Source of the DNA: Onthophagus taurus
Taxonomy: Eukaryota > Arthropoda > Insecta > Coleoptera > Scarabaeidae
Direction: 5' to 3'
Length of the DNA stretch: 64,000 nt
Assembly: GCF_036711975.1 (NCBI RefSeq)
Contig: NC_091970.1
Coordinates: 3,851,501-3,915,500 of the forward strand
Notes under the pieces: generated by a model
What the model saw: only the letters and a program-made list of their open reading frames with translations
Databases searched by the model: none
What the model was told of the DNA's origin: nothing
Program-made: the position numbers and the translations under genes
Shown: one piece after another, positions 1 to 24,126 of the stretch
Layout: every line of letters begins with the position of its first letter
Numbering within the stretch: position 1 is the stretch's first letter

Positions 1-402
1 GTTCGAGTGAATTCTGTCGAAATTTTGACGCAAAATGATAAGGAATTTAAGAATAATTTGCAGGGGAGTATTCAGTCTTTAACGGGGTTGTTAAAAACGA
101 AGCGGAGGGCCTCGAAGCGGATGTCGCAATACAACGAGCAATTAAATCAAGTTAAATTGGAGGAGGTTCAAGAAGCCATCGGGAAATTGTCCGATGACGT
201 TTATAATTTTTCGGGAGATAATTACAGAAAACGATACGATGAACTCGATGAGGAGATGACCAATATCTTCCTAAAAATACAAAATTTAGAGGTCGATGCA
301 TCGATGAGGGATTACTTAATAAGGCAAATTCAAAGTCACAAGAAAATGTTGCAACAAAAACTTCAAGATATCACTTTTGTTAAGCGAGGAACCGAAGTTT
401 AA
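1..402 (+). CDS. C-terminal part of a BAG-like coiled-coil protein (partial, runs off left edge)
   Basis: The frame is already open at base 1 (V-R-V-N...), so this is the 3' end of a gene that begins left of the window; the GTG at 7 is not a start. About 133 residues are visible, all helical and charged. The last 75 residues have the rhythm of a BAG domain, the Hsp70 nucleotide-exchange module: helix, then FSGDNYRKRYDELDEEM, then a helix with LIRQIQSHKKMLQQKL. Stop at 400-402, with a poly(A) signal AATAAA at 430-435. It converges with the next gene on the minus strand. Its last codons and 3' UTR are duplicated about 870 bp downstream (see findings). BAG assignment is by pattern only; a generic coiled coil is the alternative. 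Confidence 0.6.
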   Translation, partial: VRVNSVEILTQNDKEFKNNLQGSIQSLTGLLKTKRRASKRMSQYNEQLNQVKLEEVQEAIGKLSDDVYNFSGDNYRKRYDELDEEMTNIFLKIQNLEVDASMRDYLIRQIQSHKKMLQQKLQDITFVKRGTEV

Positions 403-493
403 TTTAATTAATTAATAATTCTTTAAAATAATAAAGTTTAATTCTGTTTAATTCTTAAAAATTTATATTTAAATTAACGTTTTTAATAAAAAT

Positions 494-570
494 CTAGGGC
501 ATGTAAGTTACTAAATTTAAGTTGGTGAAATTTTTTTGACGTTGAATTGACGTCAATTCAATTCATAAAT
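494..570 (+). repeat. Dispersed repeat, copy 1
   Basis: The segment starting CTAGGGCATGTAAGTTACTA and ending ACGTCAATTCAATTCATAAA matches 1085-1160 closely and 32328-32390 more loosely. Sequences further downstream (around 779-815 and 1158-1190, sharing a GAGGTTA..AAGGAACAT core) also match, so copies 1 and 2 may be parts of a longer duplication. No coding capacity. Confidence 0.5.
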
Positions 571-1084
571 AACAATCACGATTTTATTGAAATAATTTAT
601 TAAAGTTGAAGAAAATTGATTTGAAATGCAACATTTTGAAGTTTTAAAGGTATGTTTAGGCTAAATTATAACAAATTAATCAAAATAGCAAATAAATCTA
701 TTCAATTTGAAGTTTATTAAAAGTGATGTTAAGGAAAAAATTGCTTTCTCTAAAACGATTGGAATTTAAGAACTGAAATTTTTCGAGGTTATTAAGGAAC
801 ATTTCTGATTAGATAACACAAAATTAAATTCTCCCGGATGATGCTTTTTTCATAAAAAATTTAAAATTCTCAATGTGAAATTGACATTTGTTGACAATCG
901 AATTAATGACATTTCATCCAAAATCTGATCCAAAACGGATTATAATTAAAAATTAAAACATTTGAAACGCTGGTGTTTAAATGACGCAATATTAGAGATT
1001 AAGAAAAGTCTTATTCCATAATAAAATTTTGTAGGTACATAGTTTAATTATTTACAATAAATTTAGTGACATTTGAATATTAAT

Positions 1085-1160
1085 CTAGGGGATTTAATTT
1101 ACTAAATTTAGATTGGTGAAAATTTTTCGACATTTCTTAACGTCAATTCAATTCATAAAA
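1085..1160 (+). repeat. Dispersed repeat, copy 2
   Basis: Begins CTAGGGGATTTAATTTACTA and ends with the same ACGTCAATTCAATTCATAAA tail as the copy at 494-570. It lies just before the duplicated 3' end of the first gene. Too short and diverged to assign to a known transposon family by eye. Confidence 0.5.
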
Positions 1161-1284
1161 CTTTTTGAGGTTACAAAGGAACATGTGAAGTTAAGTCGTA
1201 CCAAATCATATTAAAAATTACTTCACTTCAAAATATCACTTTTATTAATCGAGGAACCGAAATTTAATCAATTTAATAAATTAA

Positions 1285-2082
1285 TTAATAATTCTTTAAA
1301 ATACACTCTTTAATTAACAAAATCGATTTTTCTTTCAACATCATTTTTAAATCATCCTCACAACCGTTTAAATTCTCGAGATTATCTAAAATCGCTTCAA
1401 TTTCTTTTTGAGATTCATAAACATCCTTGTTCTCTTCAATAAAACGTTCGATATCACTCAATCTCTCTTGCAATTCGTTAATTTCTTTTGTGTCACTCGC
1501 CGCGTTGATTCTCTCGAATTCCCCAAGATTATTTTTGGGGCAATTTTCCTTAGCCAGATGGAAACACGCCTTTAATTTGCAATAAACCTCCCGCCTTTTA
1601 TCGATCACATCCGGGCGTAAACTCGTTTCGATCATCGCCAAATCGAATTTAAATTGTTCCAAAATGTTCATCATAGATAAATCGGTGTTGTTCACAATTA
1701 ATTTTTGAGTGCCCCTCAATTTATCTTCTAATATCGTTAAATTGTCGATTAAATCTTCGTGTAAGTGCTTTATTGTTGGATCATTTTGAGTATTACTTTT
1801 TGAATTGAAACTTCTTCGAAAACTCGTTCGAATTAATCGCCGCTTTAAATCTTCGAGACCATCGGGAAATTTCAATTTTAATTCGTTTATTAATAATTTA
1901 TCACTTGGAATATTTTCATCGATTAATTTTAATTCATTTTTAGATTCGTCTTCATTAAAAATGGTCAAATTTGATTCTGTAAGTTTAATTTCTTCAAAAT
2001 TTTCATCACAAAATTTATTCAAAACAACATCTTTAATTTTTTCTTCATTAACCTCACTTTTCTTACCACAACAAATCCCCAT
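1285..2082 (-). CDS. Predicted N-myristoylated BAG-like protein, 265 aa
   Basis: Single-exon frame starting MGICCGKKSEV. Gly2 followed by Cys4/Cys5 and basic residues is the classic N-myristoylation plus palmitoylation signature, so membrane anchoring is likely. Residues about 105-180 (HLHEDLIDNLTILEDKLR to YCKLKACFHLAKEN) and about 205-262 form amphipathic helical units with BAG-like spacing. The ATG at 2082 is preceded by an in-frame-poor AT-rich leader and is the only start that gives the myristoylation motif. TTTATT at 1241-1246 is a minus-strand poly(A) signal 40 nt past the stop. It converges with the partial gene at 1-402. The myristoyl site is read directly; the BAG relationship is inferred and no exact family member is recognised. 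Confidence 0.7.
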   Translation of the reverse strand: MGICCGKKSEVNEEKIKDVVLNKFCDENFEEIKLTESNLTIFNEDESKNELKLIDENIPSDKLLINELKLKFPDGLEDLKRRLIRTSFRRSFNSKSNTQNDPTIKHLHEDLIDNLTILEDKLRGTQKLIVNNTDLSMMNILEQFKFDLAMIETSLRPDVIDKRREVYCKLKACFHLAKENCPKNNLGEFERINAASDTKEINELQERLSDIERFIEENKDVYESQKEIEAILDNLENLNGCEDDLKMMLKEKSILLIKECILKNY

Positions 2083-3229
2083 TTTCTCATTATATTTACG
2101 CGATCATTTCTTCATAACTTAACTGCACAAACACGCTCAAATAAAGACGAACGAAGCGAAACTTGGTGTTTGCACCCAACATAGATTAACTTCGATGACG
2201 TCATCTGAAGTTGATACCGAGTTCTTTCAACGATAACAAAAATACAAATTCTAAAACACAAAGAAGTGAGTCATCAAGAATTAATTTTTGGATTATCAAA
2301 AATTGTCGAAAATAATATTTAAAGAAATCAATTTTTAAATAATTTATTTATAATTTTGGAATCTCCGCGAAATTTCCTTTAAAATGAGTACAAACTCGAC
2401 ATATTCAATTTTTTAAAATAACCGAAATGTCAATATCAACTTTAATTTTGATGTATTCTTAATCGTTATGAAAAGTGCTTTAAAATGAGTACAAACTCGA
2501 TAGGGTTATTTCAAAAAACAAGCGAGATATCGTTTTTAATTTACGTTGCAAACTTCACGTTATTAATTTTTTTTTAATTTCTTGCATCTAAGTTGTTTTT
2601 TAAGATAACCCTTTCGAGTTTTGGTTCATTCTAAACAATTTTTCATACCAAATAAGAAAACATCAAAATTAAAATTGACATTGACAACCGGAAGTTGGCA
2701 TCTTGCTTGTTTTTAATGTTAAACATGTCATGTTTGTACTCATTTTAAAGCATTTTTAATGAAGATTTCGCATTTTTTAAATTCTGATAAACATTTAAGT
2801 ACAATAAAATGCTTTTAAATTAAATTTTGTTTAATTAAGAAGTCATACTTTAAAATTAAAGTTATCAACACCATTCTATTTGCGTAACAACACTATCTAT
2901 TGTACTGGATGGTTTGGTCAAATTTTTTTTCTTATCTTTGCTGCTTATCAAGTGTACAATACGACTTGATAACGAGGACACGATTTTAATAATAATTGTG
3001 TCTCAGGTTGTAATCCAGATTATTACAACTTTACGTTAGGTCGAGCAGGTAAGTTTATAAATCTTATTACCAAAAAAAAACAGATAATAAAAATATCAAG
3101 CCTAATTCATTCTCAATCCGAAATCAAGTCATAAAAGATAATTTCGAATCGATAAAGTATCGCGTTTTTATTTAAATATTTAAATTAAAGTTGACGTCAT
3201 TTTAACGTTGTTTTTTTGTTAGACTCGTT
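2083..3229. other. Intergenic; contains a foldback element and 5' UTR exon of next gene
   Basis: Divergent promoter space between the two MGxxC-type genes. It contains the foldback repeat at 2358-2775. A noncoding first exon of the 3230-4837 gene ends at 3048 (GAGCAG then GTAAGT), and its intron runs 3049-3222, ending TTTGTTAG. Confidence 0.55.
2358..2775. repeat. Foldback (long inverted repeat) element
   Basis: The left arm (about 2358-2522) and right arm (about 2591-2775) are imperfect reverse complements over about 165-185 nt, with a loop of about 68 nt. Shared landmarks in both arms, in order, are CTTTAAAATGAGTACAAAC, TCAATTTTAATTTTGATGT-like, TTATGAAAA and GGGTTAT..AAAAAACAA. TTTAAAATGAGTACAAACTC also occurs twice within the left arm itself. 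There is no coding capacity. It is a MITE-like foldback, or could give a hairpin transcript. Confidence 0.7.
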
Positions 3230-4837
3230 ATGGGATGTTTATCATCGAAATCGGAGAACATTACGGTTCTTCCAAAAGGAGCTTTACCGCAAAAAGCGCC
3301 TGAAGGTTACCGAAAAAAAAATCAGTATCCTATTCCTGTTGTTCTACCCCCATCTAGGATTAATTCAGTAATAGAAGAAAAGGAGAACAAGGTTCCTGAA
3401 ATTACCGTAGACGAACATAAAAGTAAAACTGAAGATGAAATAACCGAAAATCTTAGTAAAAGAACGTTTTCTGTTGAAAATGTTGATGTAAAGAACGAAG
3501 AAATTAATGCAGAATCTAAAAAAGAAGATATCACAACGTTCGAGGAAGATAAAGATCAAAATGAAACGATTACCGCATCTACAAAAAGTGAGGAAACTTC
3601 AAATATGATGGAAAAGAAAGAAGAAATACTTGAAATTGTTGATAAATCTGATGTGGTCGAGGAGATAATTGAAGAAAACAAAGAAAAAGTTGTGGATGAA
3701 ATTCAAGTTGAAGCAGAAATTGAAAGAAAACAAAATGAAAGCAAAGAAGAAGTTGAAAAAGAAGTCGAAGAAGAAACCAACGCACCAGAAATGATTGCGA
3801 GAAAGTTGGTAATTGATGAAAATGTTTCAAAATCTTTAGATGATAAAGAAATTATTGAAACAGAGAGGGTGGTGGAAAATACTTCCGATGGAGTTGAGAA
3901 AGATTTAAATGAAGAACAAATTATAGATGTAGAGAAGAGAGAGGAAGAAATTAAAGAAGATAGCGAAGGAATTAAAGAAGAAAGTGAAGAGGTTAAAGAG
4001 AAAAATGAAAAAATTAAAGAAAATTCTGAAATTAATGGAAGTTACGAAGAAAATAAAGAAAACAAAAAAAATATTGCAGAAATTACCGAAAAAACTTCAA
4101 ATGAAGAACAAATTATTGATGTAGAGAAGAGAGAAGAAAAAATTAAAGAAGATAGCGAAGGAATTAATGAGGAAAATGTTGAGGTTAAAGAGAAAAATGA
4201 AGAAATTAAAGAAAATTCTGAAATTAATGGAATTTCCGTAGAAAATAAAGAACAAAATGAAGAAATTAAAGCAAATGTTGATGAAATTACCGAAAAAACG
4301 GAAGAAAATGAAGAGAAAAATGAGGAAATTAAAGAAAACACAGAAATTAATGCAAGTTCCGAAGAAAATAAAGAACAAAATAAAAAAATTAAAGAAAATG
4401 TTGAGGAAATTACCGAGAAAACTGAAGAAACTGAAGAGAAAATTAAAGAAAATACTGAAATTAATAGAGGTTCCGAAGAAAATAAAGAAGAAAATGAAGA
4501 AATTACAGATAATGTTGCAGAAATTACCGAAAAAACTGAAGAAAATGAAGAGAAAAACGAAGAAATTAAAGAGAAAAACGAAGAAATTAAAGAAAATACT
4601 AAAGAAAACACACAAATACAAGAAAATGAAGTAAAATTGAATGGATTTGTTGATAAAAAAAAAGATGAAGACATTATAAACGATGTTAACGGTGAAACTG
4701 TCGAAAAATTATCGACAAAGCCCGAAGAAATCGTAGAAACTCAAAAAGAAGAAATTGAAACTGTCAAAAATGTAGAAAGTGACATTGACAGCCAGCAAAA
4801 TAATGTTGTAAATAATGGAATTTCAATAACTAATTAA
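3230..4837 (+). CDS. Predicted N-myristoylated acidic repeat protein, 535 aa
   Basis: Starts MGCLSSKSE: Gly2, Cys3, Ser5/Ser6 and Lys7 fit N-myristoylation plus palmitoylation. A proline-rich 40-residue head (ALPQKAPEGYRKKNQYPIPVV) is followed by about 480 residues of very acidic, Glu/Lys-rich helix. Residues about 225-465 carry repeats of roughly 30-40 residues built on EEIKEN.EIN.SSEENKEQN and EEITEKTEE. The coding exon begins at 3223 after an intron (donor 3049, acceptor TTAG), and AATAAA lies at 4953-4958. No enzymatic domain is visible. It resembles membrane-anchored acidic scaffolds of the GAP43/BASP1/AKAP type only in style. It sits among BAG-like genes but has no BAG-like segment I can see. 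Function unknown. Confidence 0.75.
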   Translation: MGCLSSKSENITVLPKGALPQKAPEGYRKKNQYPIPVVLPPSRINSVIEEKENKVPEITVDEHKSKTEDEITENLSKRTFSVENVDVKNEEINAESKKEDITTFEEDKDQNETITASTKSEETSNMMEKKEEILEIVDKSDVVEEIIEENKEKVVDEIQVEAEIERKQNESKEEVEKEVEEETNAPEMIARKLVIDENVSKSLDDKEIIETERVVENTSDGVEKDLNEEQIIDVEKREEEIKEDSEGIKEESEEVKEKNEKIKENSEINGSYEENKENKKNIAEITEKTSNEEQIIDVEKREEKIKEDSEGINEENVEVKEKNEEIKENSEINGISVENKEQNEEIKANVDEITEKTEENEEKNEEIKENTEINASSEENKEQNKKIKENVEEITEKTEETEEKIKENTEINRGSEENKEENEEITDNVAEITEKTEENEEKNEEIKEKNEEIKENTKENTQIQENEVKLNGFVDKKKDEDIINDVNGETVEKLSTKPEEIVETQKEEIETVKNVESDIDSQQNNVVNNGISITN

Positions 4838-5953
4838 AGTGGATCATCAAATATTAATAATAAGTAGAGATACGGTATTGTTTCTGTATTAACAATAACA
4901 AATTTTGATTAGTTTAAAAATCAAATTGATTTGATTGTGATAAAACTAAAACAATAAAATTTAAGAAAAAAAACTCAAATAATGAATCTTTTCTTGATAT
5001 CTTATCTAAAAATATCCAAAAATTTTATTTCTGGCACAATAAGGATGGTATTTATAAATTTTTTTCTAAATTTATCCAATTTTAATCCCTCCACATAACC
5101 TATACTTTGGTTATCAACGATGACAAAGAAATGGTACCAACTTAAAATTAAATAAAAACATTACAACCGTAAAATAAAACTAAATAATTATTTCAATTCT
5201 TTTTCTTTTGTTATTATGAATAATTTAAAAAAAAACTTACCAAAAATCATTTTTTTTTGGTTAACTTAACCTATCATCAATGAAGACTATAAACCATGAA
5301 AATTTTAGAAAAGCCCACAATAATCCTCTAGAATCCATCGAGGGAACCCAAAAAAATACGAAAACCTCAAAAACTAATTGATATTTATCGTATTTTAACC
5401 CAATTTTAACAACAATTCACTGTTTACATAAAAACGCGTTGATATAAACAAACGAGAGCGCCATCTATTATTAAGTAGCCACAATACAAAGAAAACCATA
5501 AAATTTTTAAATTATTAATAAAATTAACTTTTTTACTTTTAATTTATTATTAATAACATTCTAATCAAATTATTTTTATAATCGAATTAATAATGGAATA
5601 TAAAACATTAAATCGTCGATTTTAAACCAGCAAAAGCTTCCGCCAACACGCAAAAAGAAAGAAAAGATACTTTTTCTTATTATCGCAACCAAACACCACT
5701 GTGGTATTAATAAATCATTAATTAACATGATTAATATTAATAAATCGTATAAAAACTCACCACTTTTACAGAAGAAATTCACCCACAAAAGAAATCGTAC
5801 ACACTTTTAAGGTTATGTTTCTTATACTGTTCTTATACTCAATCATACGTTTTTACAACGTGATATTAGCAACAAAATTTTCTCAACAACATCATTATGA
5901 ATTAAATTAATATTTATTAATTTATTTACTTATTAATCAATTTGATAACATTT
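4838..5953. other. Intergenic, convergent 3' ends
   Basis: AT-rich, no convincing gene. It holds the poly(A) signal at 4953-4958, a CTCF-like GCGCCATCTA at 5458-5467, and minus-strand poly(A) candidates TTTATT at 5913-5918 and 5921-5926 for the next gene. Confidence 0.5.
5458..5467 (-). promoter_or_regulatory. CTCF-like core motif
   Basis: GCGCCATCTA, i.e. TAGATGGCGC on the minus strand, matches the core of the conserved CTCF consensus (CCASYAGRKGGCRS). It lies between convergent genes. Protein binding is inferred. Confidence 0.4.
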
Positions 5954-7783
5954 CTACTTTACATTTTTATCTTCGAGTAAATTATAAGCTTGAATCAATA
6001 AATTAAAAACCTCTTGTCGTACCGGAGCAGTTTCCGGCATCAATTGAATACGAATTTCTGAAAATTCATCCTGATACTTGTTTAGTTCGTTAAAAATCAA
6101 ATCGTAATTCAATATTTCGGCCTCTTCGATATCAGAAACCATTTGTTCGAGCATAATTTTTAATCTTTCTAACTTTAAATACGGTGATTCCGTTGATGTT
6201 TCACTTGCAAAATCTAAACTGCTACATTCTGACACTAAACTTCCGCGAGGACCTTCTTCATTCTCTCTTTCCCGTTCAAGATTTTCGTTTTCATCGAAAT
6301 TCGCGTCATCATCTTTCTTTTCTATCCAATTCAATCCGTGTTTTCCTGCTTCAATGATTTTCTCAGCTTCACTGAACATTTGCACAACGTCTAAGCGAGT
6401 AGTTATAAATTCGTCTTCTTGCACAAATCGAATATTAATGTATTTAACTTTAAGTTTTAAAAGTTTTTTCTCGGATTTTTCGTAAAAATCATAACCTTTC
6501 TTTAACTCTTTCTCCGGGGATCGCAGAGTGGATAATAACTGATTCAATTTCGTTTGAAGTTCTTTGATCTTTTTTACACTATTCTCGTTTAAATTCTTTT
6601 TGGGTTCCGATTTTTCGGGTTGCTGAAAACTTATTTCAGAACTCGTCGACGTTTTATGACTTTTATTACCTAAAGAAGATAATTTTCCTTTAAGCGATTT
6701 TAAATATTCCAATTCCTCGTCGCGTTTTAAATCGTACGGGTGTTCTTGAAAATCTTCCGGTGGCAAAATTAAATCTTCATTTTCTAAAATTAACGTGGAA
6801 TCATAAAACACATCATCATCTAGTTTTGATGTTGACGGTTTTTGGTCATTTTGAAATGGATATGAATTGTTTGGTTCTTCTCGATGATGAATTAGATTGT
6901 CATGAGTGGTATCATGTTCGTTTAATGTTTCTGTTGATTTAAAATGATTCATTACCTTTGTTAATCGACTTTTAAGATCGTTGATGTTTGTTGGTTCATT
7001 TTCTTCTTGATTTTTAATTGGTACATGTTCAAAACTATATTGGCGCTTTAATTTAGGTGTTTCGACCGGTTCTTGAGAAGAATTTTTTAACCCCAAACTA
7101 AGTTTGGTTAATTTTTCCAGGCTAAATTGGCGTTTTAACCTTAAAGGATCTTTTTGGTTTAAATCTTTACTTTTCGATTCAACCTTTTTTTGATGTTTTT
7201 CAACTTTAGATTTTTCCTTTTCGAGGTTATGTTTGTTTTTAAGATAATTTTTATATTCCCTAATCTTTAATTCTAAATTTTTTTTGTTTTCCGATAATTT
7301 GGGTTGCTTTTTGGTATCGATTTTATCCAAAATGTCTTCAATTAACTTTCCATAACTATCCTCGATAGTTTTCTTATCACCAAGGATTTTTTCAAGATTT
7401 TTTTGAAGAATTTCCAAGGTACTTTCAACAATAACTAACAAGGAATCATGTAATTTCTTCTCAATAATTAATACTTCAGTTTGTGTTGTTGTCGATTTCG
7501 TTTCAATCAATTTTTTTATTGGAAGATGAGGTTCCTGTGGTAAAACAGAACGATTTCTGTCAGTTAATAAACGAGGTTGATTTCTTTCGTTCAATTCATT
7601 CCTAATTGGTGCAATTCTTTTAGGAAGTGTTGAATCTTTTTGTTGAGGTCCTTTTTTATTGGAATTTTTTTGGTTTATTGTACTACTTGAACTATTTGAC
7701 CCCGTTGAAGTCGGTCTCCTTCTTTGGGGTTGTTGCGATTGAGATATTTTCCTGTGGCGTGGCCTGGTTGTTAATAAATCCAT
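5954..7783 (-). CDS. Large BAG-like repeat protein, 609 aa
   Basis: One long exon. The basic/Ser-rich head (residues 1-90, with poly-Ser and Gln/Arg tracts) is probably disordered. Helical units that look like divergent BAG domains lie at about 105-185 (LLVIVESTLEILQKNLEKIL...), 405-485 (VKKIKELQTKLNQLL...) and 540-605 (LERLKIMLEQMVSDIEEAE to VFNLLIQAYNLLED). Between them is a charged linker with a repeated peptide, LKRQFSLEKL and LKRQYSFEHV (about 215-250), resembling basophilic-kinase phosphosites (R-x-S). The start ATG at 7783 has an AT-rich leader; no upstream exon is needed. Possible homology to starvin/Samui co-chaperones is inferred from helix pattern and neighbours only. Confidence 0.7.
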   Translation of the reverse strand: MDLLTTRPRHRKISQSQQPQRRRPTSTGSNSSSSTINQKNSNKKGPQQKDSTLPKRIAPIRNELNERNQPRLLTDRNRSVLPQEPHLPIKKLIETKSTTTQTEVLIIEKKLHDSLLVIVESTLEILQKNLEKILGDKKTIEDSYGKLIEDILDKIDTKKQPKLSENKKNLELKIREYKNYLKNKHNLEKEKSKVEKHQKKVESKSKDLNQKDPLRLKRQFSLEKLTKLSLGLKNSSQEPVETPKLKRQYSFEHVPIKNQEENEPTNINDLKSRLTKVMNHFKSTETLNEHDTTHDNLIHHREEPNNSYPFQNDQKPSTSKLDDDVFYDSTLILENEDLILPPEDFQEHPYDLKRDEELEYLKSLKGKLSSLGNKSHKTSTSSEISFQQPEKSEPKKNLNENSVKKIKELQTKLNQLLSTLRSPEKELKKGYDFYEKSEKKLLKLKVKYINIRFVQEDEFITTRLDVVQMFSEAEKIIEAGKHGLNWIEKKDDDANFDENENLERERENEEGPRGSLVSECSSLDFASETSTESPYLKLERLKIMLEQMVSDIEEAEILNYDLIFNELNKYQDEFSEIRIQLMPETAPVRQEVFNLLIQAYNLLEDKNVK

Positions 7784-9746
7784 TTTATGTAAGCAGAAAT
7801 CCTTTTAAGTAAATAAAATTATCTAAAAAAAGGAAATGAGTCATTTAGAAAAGGGTGTTAATGTATTTATATTGTTAAAATCAAGTTAAATTTAGATAAT
7901 GTCATGTGATGATGATAAATGGCAAATGCAACTTTCCTAACTACTTTATTATTTAAAAATTACTCACATTGTTTAGTCGTTTTTATATCTTATTATTATG
8001 AAAACTTGGGTTAAATGTTACACTTGTTATGTTCGTTGTAGTCATAAAGCAATTCCCTGCGAAACCCAGATAGCTTTTGATAAGATAACAGCATTTGAGA
8101 TTAAAATTAAAATAGGGCAAGGTGTTTTTAAATTTGTTTTAGATTAAATAGTTATACAAGAGACTTCTTTACAAATTTGTGAAGTGAATTTCAAATTTAA
8201 TAATTACACGTAATTAATTTCCAGTTCTTTAATATAAAGTACAATTAATTATATAAGATAAAAATTAAATTATTATTTAATGAAAACAAGAAATGTCAAA
8301 ATAAACGTCAAAACATTTTATTTTTAGGTTATGTTACCTGTCAATAATTTGTAACGTAAAAAATATTCCAATAATCTTTTTGTCATCATAATCCTCCGGA
8401 TTTTTCTGATAAATATAATAAATTTCATGTAAACTCCGTAACACGTAATATTATACATTTTCTTTTACACCTTGCTACTTAAAGCTTTCTTGGAGCTTTT
8501 TGGAGCTTTTTTATTTTTAGCGCCATCTATTTGAGCTAATCCGACTAAATTTGATAAATGTCAAAGTGCTTTTAACATTTTTAACTTCACAAAGATAAAA
8601 TAAAATTGAATTTGGGATTGAAACGGCTTTATATGACGAAACGATCCAATTAAGAATCGTCAATAACCTTTCCCAACATTTTGTATAGGTCATTGATCCC
8701 TACCTGAACCCCAACATTGTTTACCGAAAGTTCATTGACCCTACTAAATGTAACACAAACATTTTTATGGTTCAAATTATCGTTTTTAATACATTTTAGG
8801 TTTTAACGTGGATTATTTTTATAAAAAATAACATTAATTTGTGTACTAACAATAAGTTTAAATTATCGTTGATAGCGCCATCTGTACGTGATATAATAAG
8901 ACTGAAATATAAAAATCGGGTTTCAATTACGAGATTAATTACACCAAATAAGTTATTTAAACAATTAATTTTAAGTGATTGTAAAATTGTGTGTTAATTA
9001 ATTTTTTAATAAATAATAAATATTTTTAGGCAAAATTAACCGCCGAATTTAAGTTAGCCATCTAGCGTTATTTGTACTAATTAGCTTTGGTTACTTCTGT
9101 GTGTTAAATATGTCTGTTGTTCTAATTAACTTTTTAATAATTTAATAATAATAATTTATTTATCGTTTCATTTACTTTAATTTTTATTGTGTTATTTAAG
9201 TTGTAATTTTGTTAAATATTAATTAGTATCACCCAAAGATGTTTGGGTGGTACTAATTAACAAAAACAAGATTCAAGAAGTATATTTAAAGAAAATGATT
9301 ACAAAATAAGCTTTAGTACATACTTGGTTTATTTCATAAATAAAATTGTTTGATAAATTAATATGTTGCTTTATATATGGTAAAATGCTGAATGATGAAT
9401 GTAATCATAGATAATGTAACTAAAAAAAATAAACTAATCACACTAATTAATTTGATGAAAACTAATACCATTAAGCCTTTAAAAATATAAATTGATTGTC
9501 TGTACAACAAAAAATTGGTCCAGTATTGATTGTTTAAACGTTTTTATCGTTCCGATAATATCTTATCAATCAAATAATTTGTCAGGGGAAGATCAATATT
9601 GATGAAGCAAGAACTCCCTCAGCACCAACTACACTTTAACTTAATCCTTGATAATTTACGAGAGTCACTAAAACCATTAATTTATAATGTTCTAAACCGC
9701 ATCTAAACTAGGCGAAATCTAAAATTTAATTAAAGAATCACCGAAA
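7784..9746. other. Divergent intergenic region with CTCF-like motifs
   Basis: About 2 kb between divergently transcribed genes and no open frame of interest. CTCF-like cores occur at 8520-8529 and 8875-8884, with a related GCCATCTAGCG at about 9057-9067. The rest is AT-rich and featureless to the eye. Confidence 0.5.
8520..8529 (-). promoter_or_regulatory. CTCF-like core motif
   Basis: GCGCCATCTA. A second copy, GCGCCATCTG, lies 346 bp downstream at 8875-8884 in the same orientation, in the shared upstream region of two divergent BAG-like genes. Confidence 0.4.
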
Positions 9747-10920
9747 ATGTTAAGGTAAGATTAATTTTAATTGTTTTAAAACTCAAAGATAACAAAAAGT
9801 AATCATTTTTTTCTATCGGAAATCCGAATTAATTGACAATTTTGATTGTAGAAATATATTTAGACAAAGCATTTCGATTCCACAACAAAAAGAAGCTTCA
9901 ACACAATGCGAAGGGGACGCAACACAAACATCGCTTTTGTGGACTCAAACCGAAAACATTTTTGGACTTATCGAATCTTACATCGAACAATTTTTAAGTG
10001 ACGATTCAAATCAAATAGCAAACATAAAACATTACGAGGAACGTTTAAATCTTTTTTATCAACTTTTAGGAACGGTAATTGTTGAAAAAGAATCCGAACA
10101 ATTTCAAAGAAAAATCGAAATCGATTTAAAATTGGCTCAATGTAGATACAAAGTGGAGCGATCGAAAGGATTGACCGCATCTAAAACATTAACGAAGGGT
10201 GTAAACGAAGAATTAGGTTACGTTTTAAACGTTTTGGAGAATTTTAAACGCACAAAAGTCGAATTTACCAAAGAAAATTTTTTAATTTTAAACCGAGTCA
10301 AAGATATTTTGGATGATTTAACCGAAAATCGAAACGAAATCGATCGACAATTTTCATTTTCACAACAAACCGAATTAAGTATTCTTCATAAATTAAAGAC
10401 GATTCAATCATTTTGGAAAACGATTTACAACAACCTCCAACCATCGATAAGCAAAGAATGCAGAGAGAACATCCAAATCATTCTCCAATCATTAAACATC
10501 GAAATCGTTTTAAAATTGAAGGAATTACACGTCGATGCGGATGATATTGAGCCGGTTTCTATAAATACAATCATTTCAAATGAGTTATTATCGATTGATA
10601 ATGATGACGAGGACGAAGATTTGCAGCCGTTTAAAGACCCAGCAAGGATGCACACTTTCGATACTTTACAGATTGCGAGAAAAACTGTGAAATTAAAGAA
10701 TAATATCGCCGAATTAATCCGGGAATTGGAAGGAAATGATATCAGTAAATATGAGAGGTTAAAGAAAATGTTGGATAAATGTCAAGATGGTTTCGAAGAG
10801 ATCGAAAGTCACCACAACACCGATTTAATCGCTTTAAGAACTGAAACTTTCAATAAATTACTTGCAGCATCAAAAATGACTAATGATTTGTACGAAAAGA
10901 AATTATTATCGAAGAATTAA
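9747..10920 (+). CDS. BAG-like repeat protein, about 358 aa (two exons)
   Basis: Predicted join(9747..9754, 9852..10920). The first exon is only ATG-TTA-AG before GTAAGA; the 97-nt intron ends GATTGTAG, giving MLRNIFRQSISIPQQK and then the long frame. The long frame has no ATG near its 5' end, which is why the mini-exon is needed. The whole protein is helical. Repeated three-helix units lie at about 35-115, 130-200, 205-255 and 280-350, the last ending in an LRTETFNKLLAASKMTNDLYEK segment that parallels VRQEVFNLLIQAYNLLED of the 5954-7783 gene. AATAAA at 10930-10935. BAG-like co-chaperone is a working label only. Confidence 0.7.
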
Positions 10921-11508
10921 TTAAAAAAGAATAAATATTTGTGTGATTAATTTTTAAGTTTTATTGTAAAGCGGGGCCAAAGTTAGTGTTGTGTTCTTAA
11001 GAAAAATTTATTATAATATTTGTGTTGTAAAGTCTATTATTACGTTCAATTAGATAAGATAACGAAAAAATGATATTGATCTCGTTTACAAAAAGGTGCC
11101 GTTTTACTATTGATTCAGCAAAGGTACACGGTGTAATTATAGTCGAGGTCGTTATAAAACAATTATAATTGTAGAAAAACCTTAATTACTTTCGATATCG
11201 ATGGAGTCAAGAAAAAAATTAATTTTGGAGTAATACAAAATCAAAAAATCGTAAGTAGTCGTTTTAAAGGTTATCTCAATTTGATAACGGAAAAAATTAT
11301 CCCCAAAATTAAAAGCTTAATCATTTTAATATTTCATTTTGCTCGGTTCCAATCAAAATAACCAAAAATTAAAGTTATTAAAACCCAAAGATAGCAGGGT
11401 ATCGTCACAATTTTTTTATTACGGCCTTGTTTATCACGAGATAACATTCCAATGATAGTTTTTCGCTTTGAAAACAGTGAGTAATTAAACTTTTATTTTA
11501 GAAAAAGA
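10921..11508. other. Intergenic plus 5' UTR of next gene
   Basis: Contains poly(A) signal 10930-10935. A likely leader intron of the next gene runs from GTAAGTAGTC at 11251 to TTTTAG at 11501. Nothing else recognised. Confidence 0.45.
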
Positions 11509-13378
11509 ATGAGTATTTTAAAAAAGTTTCTTGCTTCGAATTTAACAAGATACGAAGAGCAACAGAAACGACGTTACAAGAAATACCTCAAAATACAAAA
11601 ATCGAACGCAAAAGAAACACCAAAAACCGAGGCTGAGTTGTACGAAGATTACATCGAACGCCAAAAATCATTGAGATTGAGCAAACAAAAAGCACCTCTC
11701 CCAAGAGAAGAAATCATTTTTAAAGAACCCAATTCAGGCTTAAATTTAGGCCCAGCTCCAGCTCTTTTAGAAGCCACAAACAACTTCGTCGTTGTTGATT
11801 CGATTTTACCCGAAGATGAATCAAAAAAGGCTTCAATTGAATGTAACATTTACGAGGAAATTGCCCACCCCCCAATTCCAGTTCGAAGGAAACCCAGGAA
11901 ATCGTTTGAAACCTCACAATCTTATTACGAAGAAGAAAAACCACCTCAAGAAGCGATTGAGAAGCATCAATCGATTGAAATTGGAAGAGTATCAATGTCC
12001 ACTGATTCAGACTTGTACTACGATTGCATCAGCAACCAAACCGATTTTAACGAAGAATTCCAATTTAACGACATAAAATGGGAGTACCCCGAAGAAACGA
12101 AACCAAAAGGTGTTAATTTAATGACTTTGAATGAAGAGATTAATAATGCTTGGAGGGGAAGTTCGAATCAAAACGGTACCAACCTAAAATTTTTAAATAT
12201 AAATTTTAATTAAATTATTTTTAGGTTATACAGTAGAAAACATGCAAATTCAAAACGAAATTTGGAGTCCTCAAGAATTAACAATAAAGGAATCTAATTT
12301 TGAACCAAATCAAGATATTAAATTTGAAAATTACGATTATGACGATGATGTCTTTATGTCCTCCGATAACGAAACGACAACGGAATTAATCCAATCGTTT
12401 AACGATTTCGCTGTAATCGGTACAAAAGAAGTTGAGAGTGAACCAAAATTATTAGTTTCTAAAGAAAAAATTAAACTCAATCAATTAACGAATTATTTCG
12501 ATCCGGACGAAAACGAAGGAACAATACTCGATAATGAAAAAAAATCTTTTTCTTCAACATCTTCGCCCAGCTCAACGTCTTCATCGTCATCTGAAGGTGA
12601 TGTTTTTGAAAAGAAACCTGATCGAAAAGTTAATTTTGATTTTGCAAACTCTTTTTGTACAACGTACGAACGTCCAAGACAACTTTCTTCTTACTCGGAT
12701 GATTCGGCGGAAGACGAAAACCAAGTTTTACAGCCCCTTTATTTTAACGACGAGTATTATAACCAAAAAGACCACGTTTATAAAAATTTTGGTATCGAAA
12801 ATAAAACAATTTTATCCCCGATTTATGAAAACATCAACGAAAACAATCAATCGATGGATTTAGTTTTATTAAGTTGCCAAAACGGTTATCACCACGAAAG
12901 TGAAATTAATGAAACAGAAGATGATGAAGAACTAGATCAATTTAGTGAGGAAGATTCGTTGGAGTTTGATATAAATCGTGATAAAAGATTCCAAGAGTAT
13001 TACGATAACATCGGTGATTTTAATGGAAAAACGGATAAGAATACAAAAGAAGATTTATTTTCAATTCCAAAAATCGAAAATGAATTGGATAGAATTAAAC
13101 AAACGGGCGATGATGTAAACGTACAAATCGATAAAATTCATTTAGTTCTAAACAAAATCAGCGAGCAAATCGATTATTTAGAATCAAAAGACGACGAACA
13201 ATACACACCTTTATTAAAATTATTGTTGCTTTGTATGAAAATATTGGGAAATTTAAATTGTAACTTCGACGAGGAGACTTTAAAATCGCAAAAAATCAAC
13301 ATGGAGTATATCAGGAAATGTATAACAACTCTAAAAGAAAAACAACAACCTAAAAATACGCTGGATGATTACATCTGA
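11509..13378 (+). CDS. BAG-like acidic protein, about 606 aa (two exons)
   Basis: Predicted join(11509..12175, 12225..13378). The 49-nt intron (GTACCA...TTTTTAG) joins the two open frames in phase (AAC-G/GT-TAT), and both flanks stay open across it, so this is one gene rather than two. The N-terminus is basic and helical (MSILKKFLASNLTRYEEQQK). The middle is acidic and Ser-rich, with a Ser/Pro/Thr run near residue 325-340. The C-terminal about 100 residues (IENELDRIKQTGDDVNVQI to IRKCITTLKEKQQ) form a BAG-like helical unit. Tyr-rich motifs (YEEIAHPPIPVRRKPRK, DLYYDC) could be SH2/SH3 ligands. AATAAA at 13628-13633. Family function is not established. Confidence 0.7.
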
Positions 13379-21527: not shown

Positions 21528-24055
21528 TTAAACGATTTGATAAGTGAAGAAAGCTACGACAACGCTTAAAAGTCCTAAAAGAACATGAGATCTTTCTGAG
21601 CCGCTACAATGTCGGCATTGTTCGATGACATCTTGATATTTGCTTCGGATGGTTTCCCAAGAACATAACCCCACCGAGCACTCGGGGATATCAACAGGAT
21701 TCTCGTTCAGGTAAAACATGACTTTGTACATATCTCTTTGCGAAGGATCACACCTAAAATTTATCAAATTAATTTATACTTAAAAAAAAATTCTTTTCCT
21801 TACTCGTATAAAACGGCTACAAAATTAGCAGCGAATGGAGCAATCTCGGAAGTTTTCCAACGTCTCCTTGATTGGGTGTAATAATTTTGAGCACTTAACG
21901 GTGTATAATCCCTGTATAAACCCATCGCAACCAACATGTGTTGGATTGAATCAGCCGTTGCAAAGGTAACGGCAACTTTTTGATGACTACTATAACCATC
22001 GATGGTTTTTTGGAACCGTACGTACATATCTCTTAAATATTGACATCCAGCCATTTTATTTTGTTGCTCATTTCCATATCCATTCCGTAAGAAATCGCGT
22101 AAATCTTCTGCGTATTCCAGTAAATCCAACTGCTTCTTGTTAAACACCGAACACCACGCCGACTCCCTTCTTGGGAAAAACGCCTTTTCTAAACGACACA
22201 TTTCGTACATATCATCGATTACTGAGTCATTTAAAACATATCTGTAACCTAATCTTCGAAAGATGTTTCTTGTTAAATCTTTGTAATCGGGTTTTTGTTT
22301 TAATTGCATTATTTCCGGGTCATCTCCAAACGATCTTGAACTTGAATATTGATTACCTTGATAACCTGATGAAGGATATTGATTTCCTGACGAGTATTGG
22401 TTTGGATATTGATTTCCACTGGAATATTGTGAACCTTGATATTGCCCTGGAGAACCAGAATATTGTCCAGAAGAACTAGAATATTGTCCGGGTGACCCAG
22501 AATATTGTCCAGGTGACCCAGAATATTGTCCGGATGACCCAGAATATTGTCCGGATGACCCAGAATATTGTCCAGACCCTGAATATCCCGCACTTTGATA
22601 TTGACCCCCAGAATATTGGGTTGAATATTGGCTATTATATCCAAAAGATCCACATCCATCTCCTAATTCATCTCGAACGTTGGCATGCACCAAAGCGGAA
22701 TTTTGAAATAACCCCTCAGTAAACTCTTTATAACTATCGTAAATACGATCCATTCTAGAATATTGGAAATAATAATGATTTTCTGAGTATGGTACTCCTA
22801 GAAGTTCCCGAAATTTAGTTTGATATCTCGACACCAAATAACGCATGTCTTCCATTCCTTGTTGAGATAACATAAACGCTGATGAAAAATTAATGGTATC
22901 GTTCCATCTCCAACGTTTCAACAATTCGAAATCTTCGCGACAAAGTCGCCCTTTGCCCGGGTAAGTTCCTTCGACTTCGTAGTTACGCATTATTTCATCT
23001 TGAACTCGACGCAAATTCATTAAACGTTGAATTACGGTTGGATCGGGAAAATTTGCACCCACTTTATTCAAACTCCAAAATTGAACCGGTCTACATTCTA
23101 AAAAAATCAAAAAAAATTAGAATTGTTATAGGTTAGGTAAACTGTCAAAAGAATTTTTTAGGTTAAATTTTTTTTTATTTCGAAGGAGAAATTAAAGAGA
23201 GTTCGTTTTGAAAAACTTTTTTTGAATAACCGTTATATTATTATGATTAATAACGTTTTATTATTTAAAAAATTGGTTTTAATTTTCTTTTTGAGAAGAG
23301 TTAGTGTAGGGTGGTAACAATGAATTTTTTTTTTAATGTAGGTTGCTATCGAATGTTATTGTTGTATTATCAATTATCATAGATAAAATTAAGGTGAGGT
23401 TAATTTAAAAGTCCTAATAGAAGAATTTAAAAATATGATTACGTGGAACTGTGGATGATCCCAAATTTTTTCCATAAGCGAACGTATAAGCAGTTTTTGG
23501 TCCAAATTTCAAATATTGTTGGTGATCCGTTGAATAACAATAATCTTCGCAGCAATCTCCATCATCGATTCGTTCCCCTTGCGGTGCATATCCACCCCTG
23601 TTCCTCCCGTAATCATCATATCTCCCTCCGCTTTGTCCATATCTTCTATCTTGGTTATATCTGTCATAATCCTGTCGGTTTCGGTCATAATCCGGCCTGT
23701 TTCGGTCATAATTATCAGTTCTATTTCGATCGTAAGGGCTGTAGTTGTATCTGTCGCGATCATACGGTTGTTGTGGTTGCCCGTATTGATCCGTCCTGTT
23801 TCGATCATAGTTTAACGGTGTATATTTTTCCCGATCAGTTAATGGATTATACCTGTCTCTATCACGATCATATTGCCGATCCCGGTTGTCGTAGGGTTGT
23901 TGCCGATCACGATCGTATTGTTGTTGCCGATCCCTATCGTATTGACTCGTACTATATGGGGTACGATCGGTGTTATCACCGTAAGGTTTTTGACCGTAAG
24001 GATCATATTGAGCCCATGATGGAGCGATGATTAAAATTAGGATTAGATGGAACAT
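21528..24055 (-). CDS. MINPP1-family (histidine acid phosphatase-like) secreted protein, likely pseudoenzyme
   Basis: Predicted complement(join(21528..21753, 21804..23097, 23443..24055)), 710 aa. The signal peptide MFHLILILIIAPSWA precedes about 130 residues of Tyr/Asp/Arg/Gln repeats (YDRDRQQ, YDRNRTD), then a MINPP1-like body: YLKFGPKTAYTFAYG, CRPVQFWSL, WNDTINFSSAFMLSQQGMED, a DYTPLSAQNY segment and IAPFAANFVAVLYEC. The C-terminal hydrophobic tail after a Ser-rich stretch suggests GPI anchoring. MINPP1 enzymes cleave inositol polyphosphates using RHGxRxP and HAE motifs. Here these read KVGANFP (about 216-222) and TAD (about 585-587), so the nucleophile and acid residues are gone. A Tyr-Ser-Gly-Gln repeat array (about 357-470) interrupts the domain. 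Introns are 50 and 345 nt. Confidence 0.85.
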
Positions 24056-24126
24056 CCTGAAACATTTTAATTTTATTTAAATTGTTTTTAATATTTATTT
24101 AAAGTGTAAAAAGTGCAGTTTAATAA

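Follow-up and report, generated by a model that had tools for sequence, protein, structure and literature searches.

The first 13,378 nucleotides of a 64,000-nucleotide stretch of the genome of the beetle Onthophagus taurus (contig NC_091970.1, positions 3,851,501 to 3,915,500), referred to here as the window, comprise six adjacent genes on both strands, at least two of which encode proteins ending in a unit reminiscent of the BAG domain, a small three-helix domain that aids the Hsp70 chaperone. An animal usually possesses only a few, scattered BAG proteins; those of insects include Starvin and Samui. The BAG-like ends carried by these neighbouring, strongly diverged genes are, in our assessment, real.

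Gene 1 (1..402, plus strand; 133 amino acids) is the 3' part of a gene cut by the window edge and contains one BAG-like unit, which by eye is perhaps preceded by the tail of another one. Gene 2 (1285..2082, minus strand; 265 amino acids), gene 3 (3230..4837, plus strand; 535 amino acids) and gene 4 (5954..7783, minus strand; 609 amino acids) are likewise open frames. In gene 5, a predicted coding exon of 8 nucleotides (9747..9754, plus strand) is joined in frame to the open exon 2 (9852..10920), yielding a total protein of 358 amino acids, and gene 6 consists of two exons (11509..12175 and 12225..13378, plus strand) connected by a predicted in-frame splice. Both joins were read by eye from GT..AG sites with the frame kept, the predicted introns measuring 97 and 49 bases. 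Calculated from base composition only, for a single frame and uncorrected, the chance of an open frame is 7e-6 for the cut gene 1 and at most 8e-10 for each of the other six tested frames, with 2e-24 for gene 4. Since such frames are very improbable by chance, the cluster genes look real, and the six adjacent genes with the above coordinates, as proposed by an earlier reading made from the letters of the DNA (the sequence-only reading), are borne out by the open frames and, for genes 5 and 6, by the predicted joins. The G+C content of the window lies between 22 and 42% per kilobase.

No BAG-like unit was seen in gene 3, which was included in the Pfam scan, and this Glu/Lys repeat protein is the non-member of the cluster. 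Between 3907 and 4628, it features nested Glu/Lys-rich tandem repeats with periods of, for example, 21, 60, 114, 123 and 192 bases.

Candidate units and their mutual similarity

Ten candidate units were delimited by visual inspection guided by the BAG pattern, gene 6 being represented by one unit only. The C-terminal units of gene 4 (U4c, 5966..6190, minus strand) and gene 5 (U5d, 10657..10899, plus strand) are homologous as judged from their sequences: phmmer searches in a database of the six proteins gave expectation values (E) of 1.0e-6 and 1.8e-6 among the matches listed, with 28% identity and a shuffle z score of 11.4 (0 of 300 shuffles). As a background, the units were compared with 22 helical segments of the IFT140 and VPS18 frames of the window, and these 220 comparisons reached a maximum z of 4.45. 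The paralogous ends claimed by the sequence-only reading hence hold up. Weaker relationships connect U4c to a unit of gene 2 (U2a, 1540..1785, minus strand; E 0.004-0.008 in the six-protein database, z 5.5) and U5d to the unit of gene 6 (U6, 13124..13342, plus strand; E 0.013-0.026, z 4.0, a score reached by 1.4% of the background comparisons). Taken as a set, the 45 unit pairs slightly exceed the background (Mann-Whitney p 0.035); individually, three pairs attain a z of at least 4, followed by U2a-U4a with 2.8 and U4b-U4c with 2.6. The all-against-all alignment upholds the proposed kinship strongly for U4c and U5d and more weakly for U2a-U4c and U5d-U6.

The remaining candidates lie further inside the proteins or beside the units named so far. 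In gene 2, U2b (1291..1500, minus strand) forms no pair with a z of at least 4 and gave no BAG match. In gene 4, U4b (6341..6589, minus strand) displays a weak likeness to U4c only, and U4a (7232..7471, minus strand), whose best pair is U2a, gave no BAG match. The two internal candidates of gene 5, U5a (9943..10164) and U5b (10186..10416, both plus strand), are helical at low confidence in a model of the whole protein, which is helical nearly throughout; ahead of the last unit, where the underlying alignment is almost devoid of other rows, the block means of the predicted local distance difference test (pLDDT) amount to 31-70. Thus, the internal units exhibit no supported likeness to BAG or to the C-terminal units and are inseparable from the helical background.

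Likeness to known BAG domains

Three routes bear on a relation to BAG, namely gene 1 alone, a profile of units and the structure of a single unit, among which the structure search carries most weight. AlphaFold2, provided with an alignment holding three paralogous rows, folded U4c into three helices (residues 3-22, 29-45 and 54-74) with a mean pLDDT of 89.7. This was the unit covered by the single-unit structure search, gene 5 being searched as a whole model. In a Foldseek search of the U4c model against 350,542 PDB chains, 162 chains matched at an E of at most 10, headed by BAG3 (probability 1.00, template modelling (TM) score 0.81 over the query, root-mean-square deviation (rmsd) 3.3, E 0.15) and BAG4 (probability 1.00, TM score 0.84, rmsd 2.7, E 0.23). 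BAG domains of animal and plant origin, including the fifth domain (BD5) of BAG5 from its complex with Hsp70, account for 12 of the best 50 of these 162 matches. U4c is accordingly modelled as a three-helix bundle that is closest to known BAG structures. In the gene 5 model, U5d also consists of three helices, with block-mean pLDDT values of 75-95 that reach at least 90 in six of the nine blocks. Modelling hence supports a BAG fold for U4c and, via homology, for U5d, because the structure search with U4c finds BAG and U5d is homologous to U4c. For these two units, the analysis yielded neither a predicted structure other than a three-helix bundle nor an assignment to unrelated coiled coils without mutual similarity, the outcomes that would have refuted the sequence-only reading.

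In addition, the distance from the helix-2 aromatic residue to the helix-3 Arg or Gln is 29 residues in U4c, U5d and U6, as in BAG4; in U1, the unit of gene 1 (157..378, plus strand), it is 24, thus five shorter, and U2a was anchored by choice. The three-helix BAG-like units of the sequence-only reading are supported at the C-termini of genes 4 and 5, with the shared spacing extending to a third unit, and unsupported for the internal candidates.

Pfam scans were applied to seven frames (gene 5 without exon 1 and gene 6 as two frames) and to the ten units, and in these no family exceeded its own cut-off for any of genes 1-6. On its own, gene 1 retrieved as the best of seven PDB rows a BAG domain of BAG5 (E 0.11). 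A profile built from U4c, U5d, U2a and U6, which contains no BAG sequence, placed BAG4 at ranks 1 and 2 of 26 PDB rows (E 0.0037 and 0.0056) in an alignment spanning nearly the full length, and a profile of VPS18 and IFT140 helices from the window had BAG in none of its seven rows. With U1 included, BAG4, BAG5 and BAG1 occupied five of 44 rows (E 0.019, 0.032, 0.12, 1.6 and 1.8), the last two values belonging to BAG1. The profile searches with four and with five units are in agreement with the structure search. Searches for relatives elsewhere produced 152 pattern matches to gene 5 in bacterial and archaeal genomes and 11 to gene 4 in viral contigs, none of which was confirmed. By structure and by profile alike, the best counterparts are the short BAG domains of BAG4 (also SODD) and BAG3 (1m7k, 1m62, 1uk5), which share the short three-helix bundle with the units and, in the case of BAG4, their helix spacing; unlike in these proteins, most of the residues contacting Hsp70 appear to have been lost in the array outside gene 1, and the U4c model is 14-16% identical to BAG3 and BAG4 in sequence.

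A number of results weigh against a BAG-fold array. The gathering cut-off of PF02179, 23.4 bits, is not attained, the best scores being 14.9 bits for U1 and 14.1 bits for the gene 1 frame. Below threshold, BAG appears in one of the seven frames, as the third of eight families, and in one of the ten units, as the second of three, in both cases behind EzrA; the nine units other than U1 have no Pfam BAG row. Adding U1 to the four-unit profile leaves BAG4 first but weakens it to an E of 0.019, and BAG is missing from all 18 rows of the two-unit profile of U4c and U5d, which is topped by a coiled coil of the dynein regulatory complex at E 0.0056. A profile of five internal units contains BAG in none of its 29 rows and reaches BUB1 beta at E 0.011. 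Given the matches to BUB1 beta and the dynein regulatory complex, E values near those of BAG4 are apparently obtainable by chance and not decisive alone. With only three of 45 pairs at z 4 or above and no BAG in the internal profile, the presence of three or four units in one protein is unconfirmed. PDB searches with genes 2, 4 and 5 and with exon 2 of gene 6, each alone, retrieved no BAG. Moreover, the best Foldseek E for U4c is 0.15, with none below 0.001, and the whole gene 5 model, for which a BAG domain of BAG5 at rank 45 has the top probability (0.63) among the best 50 rows, lacked a clean fold match (best E 0.19), which is why one unit was modelled alone. Finally, U1 has no pairwise sequence link to any other unit (best z 1.8), and leave-one-out hidden Markov models recovered none of the five core units among the best 14 rows listed per run; hence, the sequence on its own fails to bring the five genes together. 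It establishes one homologous pair, U4c and U5d, and suggests that genes 2, 4, 5 and 6 form a family, to which it does not link gene 1.

Several of these observations would also be expected if the genes encoded generic three-helix or coiled-coil proteins that had come to resemble BAG by convergence, above all the sub-threshold Pfam scores, the failure of the leave-one-out profiles and the coiled-coil and other chance-level matches at similar E. Furthermore, bundles other than BAG match the U4c model as well, among them FliT with a probability of up to 0.77 and a designed three-helix bundle with 0.80, and U2a resembles the mite allergen family of Blo t 5 and Der f 21, with an E of 0.0019 in Pfam and 0.034 in the PDB. 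Convergence does not, however, readily explain why BAG holds the top two ranks by structure as well as by profile, nor why three units reproduce the helix spacing of BAG4, and we consider it a rather doubtful explanation that nevertheless deserves attention. An alternative division of the locus treats gene 1 as the true BAG gene, a relative of starvin or BAG5, next to which genes 2, 4, 5 and 6 of another family happen to lie. This would agree with the fact that only gene 1 matches BAG on its own and that U1 is not notably linked to the other units, but the profile devoid of U1 still ranks BAG4 first and BAG domains head the matches of the U4c model, which renders this division unlikely.

Hsp70 contacts and possible roles

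According to PMC6013550, human BAG1 contacts Hsp70 through Glu212, Asp222, Arg237 and Gln245. These positions were transferred to BAG4 by their spacing (10 from Glu to Asp and 8 from Arg to Gln) and from there to the units, with anchors set by eye, a choice on which all of the following assignments depend. U1 presents E, Q, R and Q and thus keeps three of the four contacts. A single contact is kept in U5d (K, E, R and L, with Glu in place of Asp in addition), U4c (N, S, R and I) and U2a (N, A, R and K), and none of the four in U6 (K, G, Q and R). Hence, four of the five units appear, from their sequences, to have kept the fold and lost the grip on Hsp70.

A scenario in which all five genes nevertheless encode active nucleotide-exchange co-chaperones of Hsp70, each protein bearing many functional BAG units, would be in keeping with the BAG fold modelled for U4c and the helix-3 Arg retained in U1, U2a, U4c and U5d. 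The apparent loss of three or all four contacts in U2a, U4c, U5d and U6 and the lack of support for internal units speak against such a scenario, which we deem very improbable. The co-chaperone family suggested by the sequence-only reading goes too far for the same reasons, because outside gene 1 most of the contacts seem to be gone, no unit passes the Pfam BAG cut-off and the extra units are unproven. Likewise, membership of the array in the BAG family falls short of being demonstrated, as the scores stay below the Pfam cut-off and the Hsp70 contacts seem to have mostly disappeared beyond gene 1.

The interpretation that we favour, at roughly even confidence, is that diverged genes of BAG fold form a local array, most likely duplicated from a BAG5-like ancestor with multiple BAG domains. 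That the genes are adjacent and mutually similar suggests that the array arose by duplication in place. BAG5 (1ugo, 3a8y, 2d9d), one BAG domain of which is the best PDB match of gene 1, offers the nearest precedent of a multi-BAG protein: its fifth domain, BD5, binds Hsp70 (PMC9261338), and the other four are three-helix bundles of unknown function (PMC4753570). In contrast to BAG5, which unites five units in one protein, the array distributes them over separate genes, the internal units being unproven.

Under the proposed BAG5-like origin, local duplication of the ancestor would have produced the array. The unit of gene 1, in which the Glu, Arg and Gln contacts are kept, would still bind the nucleotide-binding domain of Hsp70 and help to release ADP. 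In genes 2, 4, 5 and 6, where the contacts appear to have decayed, the bundle may for that reason have turned into a protein-binding or scaffold domain, by analogy with the four BAG5 domains mentioned above. The differing N-termini would then position the proteins. Gene 2 begins with MGICC (MGICCGKK in full), which we take to be an acylation-like motif of the type MGxC. In genes 4 and 5, the first helical part is preceded at a short distance by TQT motifs, one in gene 4 (7478..7486, minus strand) and two in gene 5 (9922..9951, plus strand), which presumably resemble LC8 sites. It is conceivable, albeit tentative, that an insect lineage thereby came to possess an array with one Hsp70 exchange factor, the other members serving as scaffolds that no longer grip Hsp70, with the gene 2 protein tethered to the membrane and those of genes 4 and 5 to LC8/dynein, so that a co-chaperone fold would be reused for non-chaperone assembly. 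If true, the locus would constitute a natural experiment in a co-chaperone domain drifting to a scaffold, with one member retaining Hsp70 contacts and the rest without them, and it would hint at a function for genes that have no Pfam family above threshold in these scans. No BAG gene cluster of an insect appeared among the literature titles and abstract openings listed, which is weak evidence of absence.

Flanking duplications and neighbouring frames

The surroundings of gene 1 include duplicated segments. Its last codons and 3' flank (360-443) recur at 1225-1315 with 80% identity, and the adjoining stretch 446-569 recurs at 1042-1159 with 78%; both copies are situated between genes 1 and 2, in swapped order. 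Genes 2 and 3 are arranged head to head (2082 and 3230), and both start with an acylation-like MG..C motif (MGICCGKK and MGCLSSKS, respectively). Between these divergent genes, 2276-2850 forms an imperfect palindrome of 575 bases (64%, E 7e-55) that resembles a hairpin or an element of the miniature inverted-repeat transposable element type.

Among neighbouring frames of the window, Pfam matches comprise IFT140, VPS18, the diacylglycerol kinase accessory domain and C2H2 zinc fingers. A further frame at 21800-24076 encodes Gln/Tyr/Ser/Gly repeats followed by a match to histidine phosphatase branch 2 (residues 287-438), and is located near another frame that is rich in Arg/Asp/Tyr repeats.

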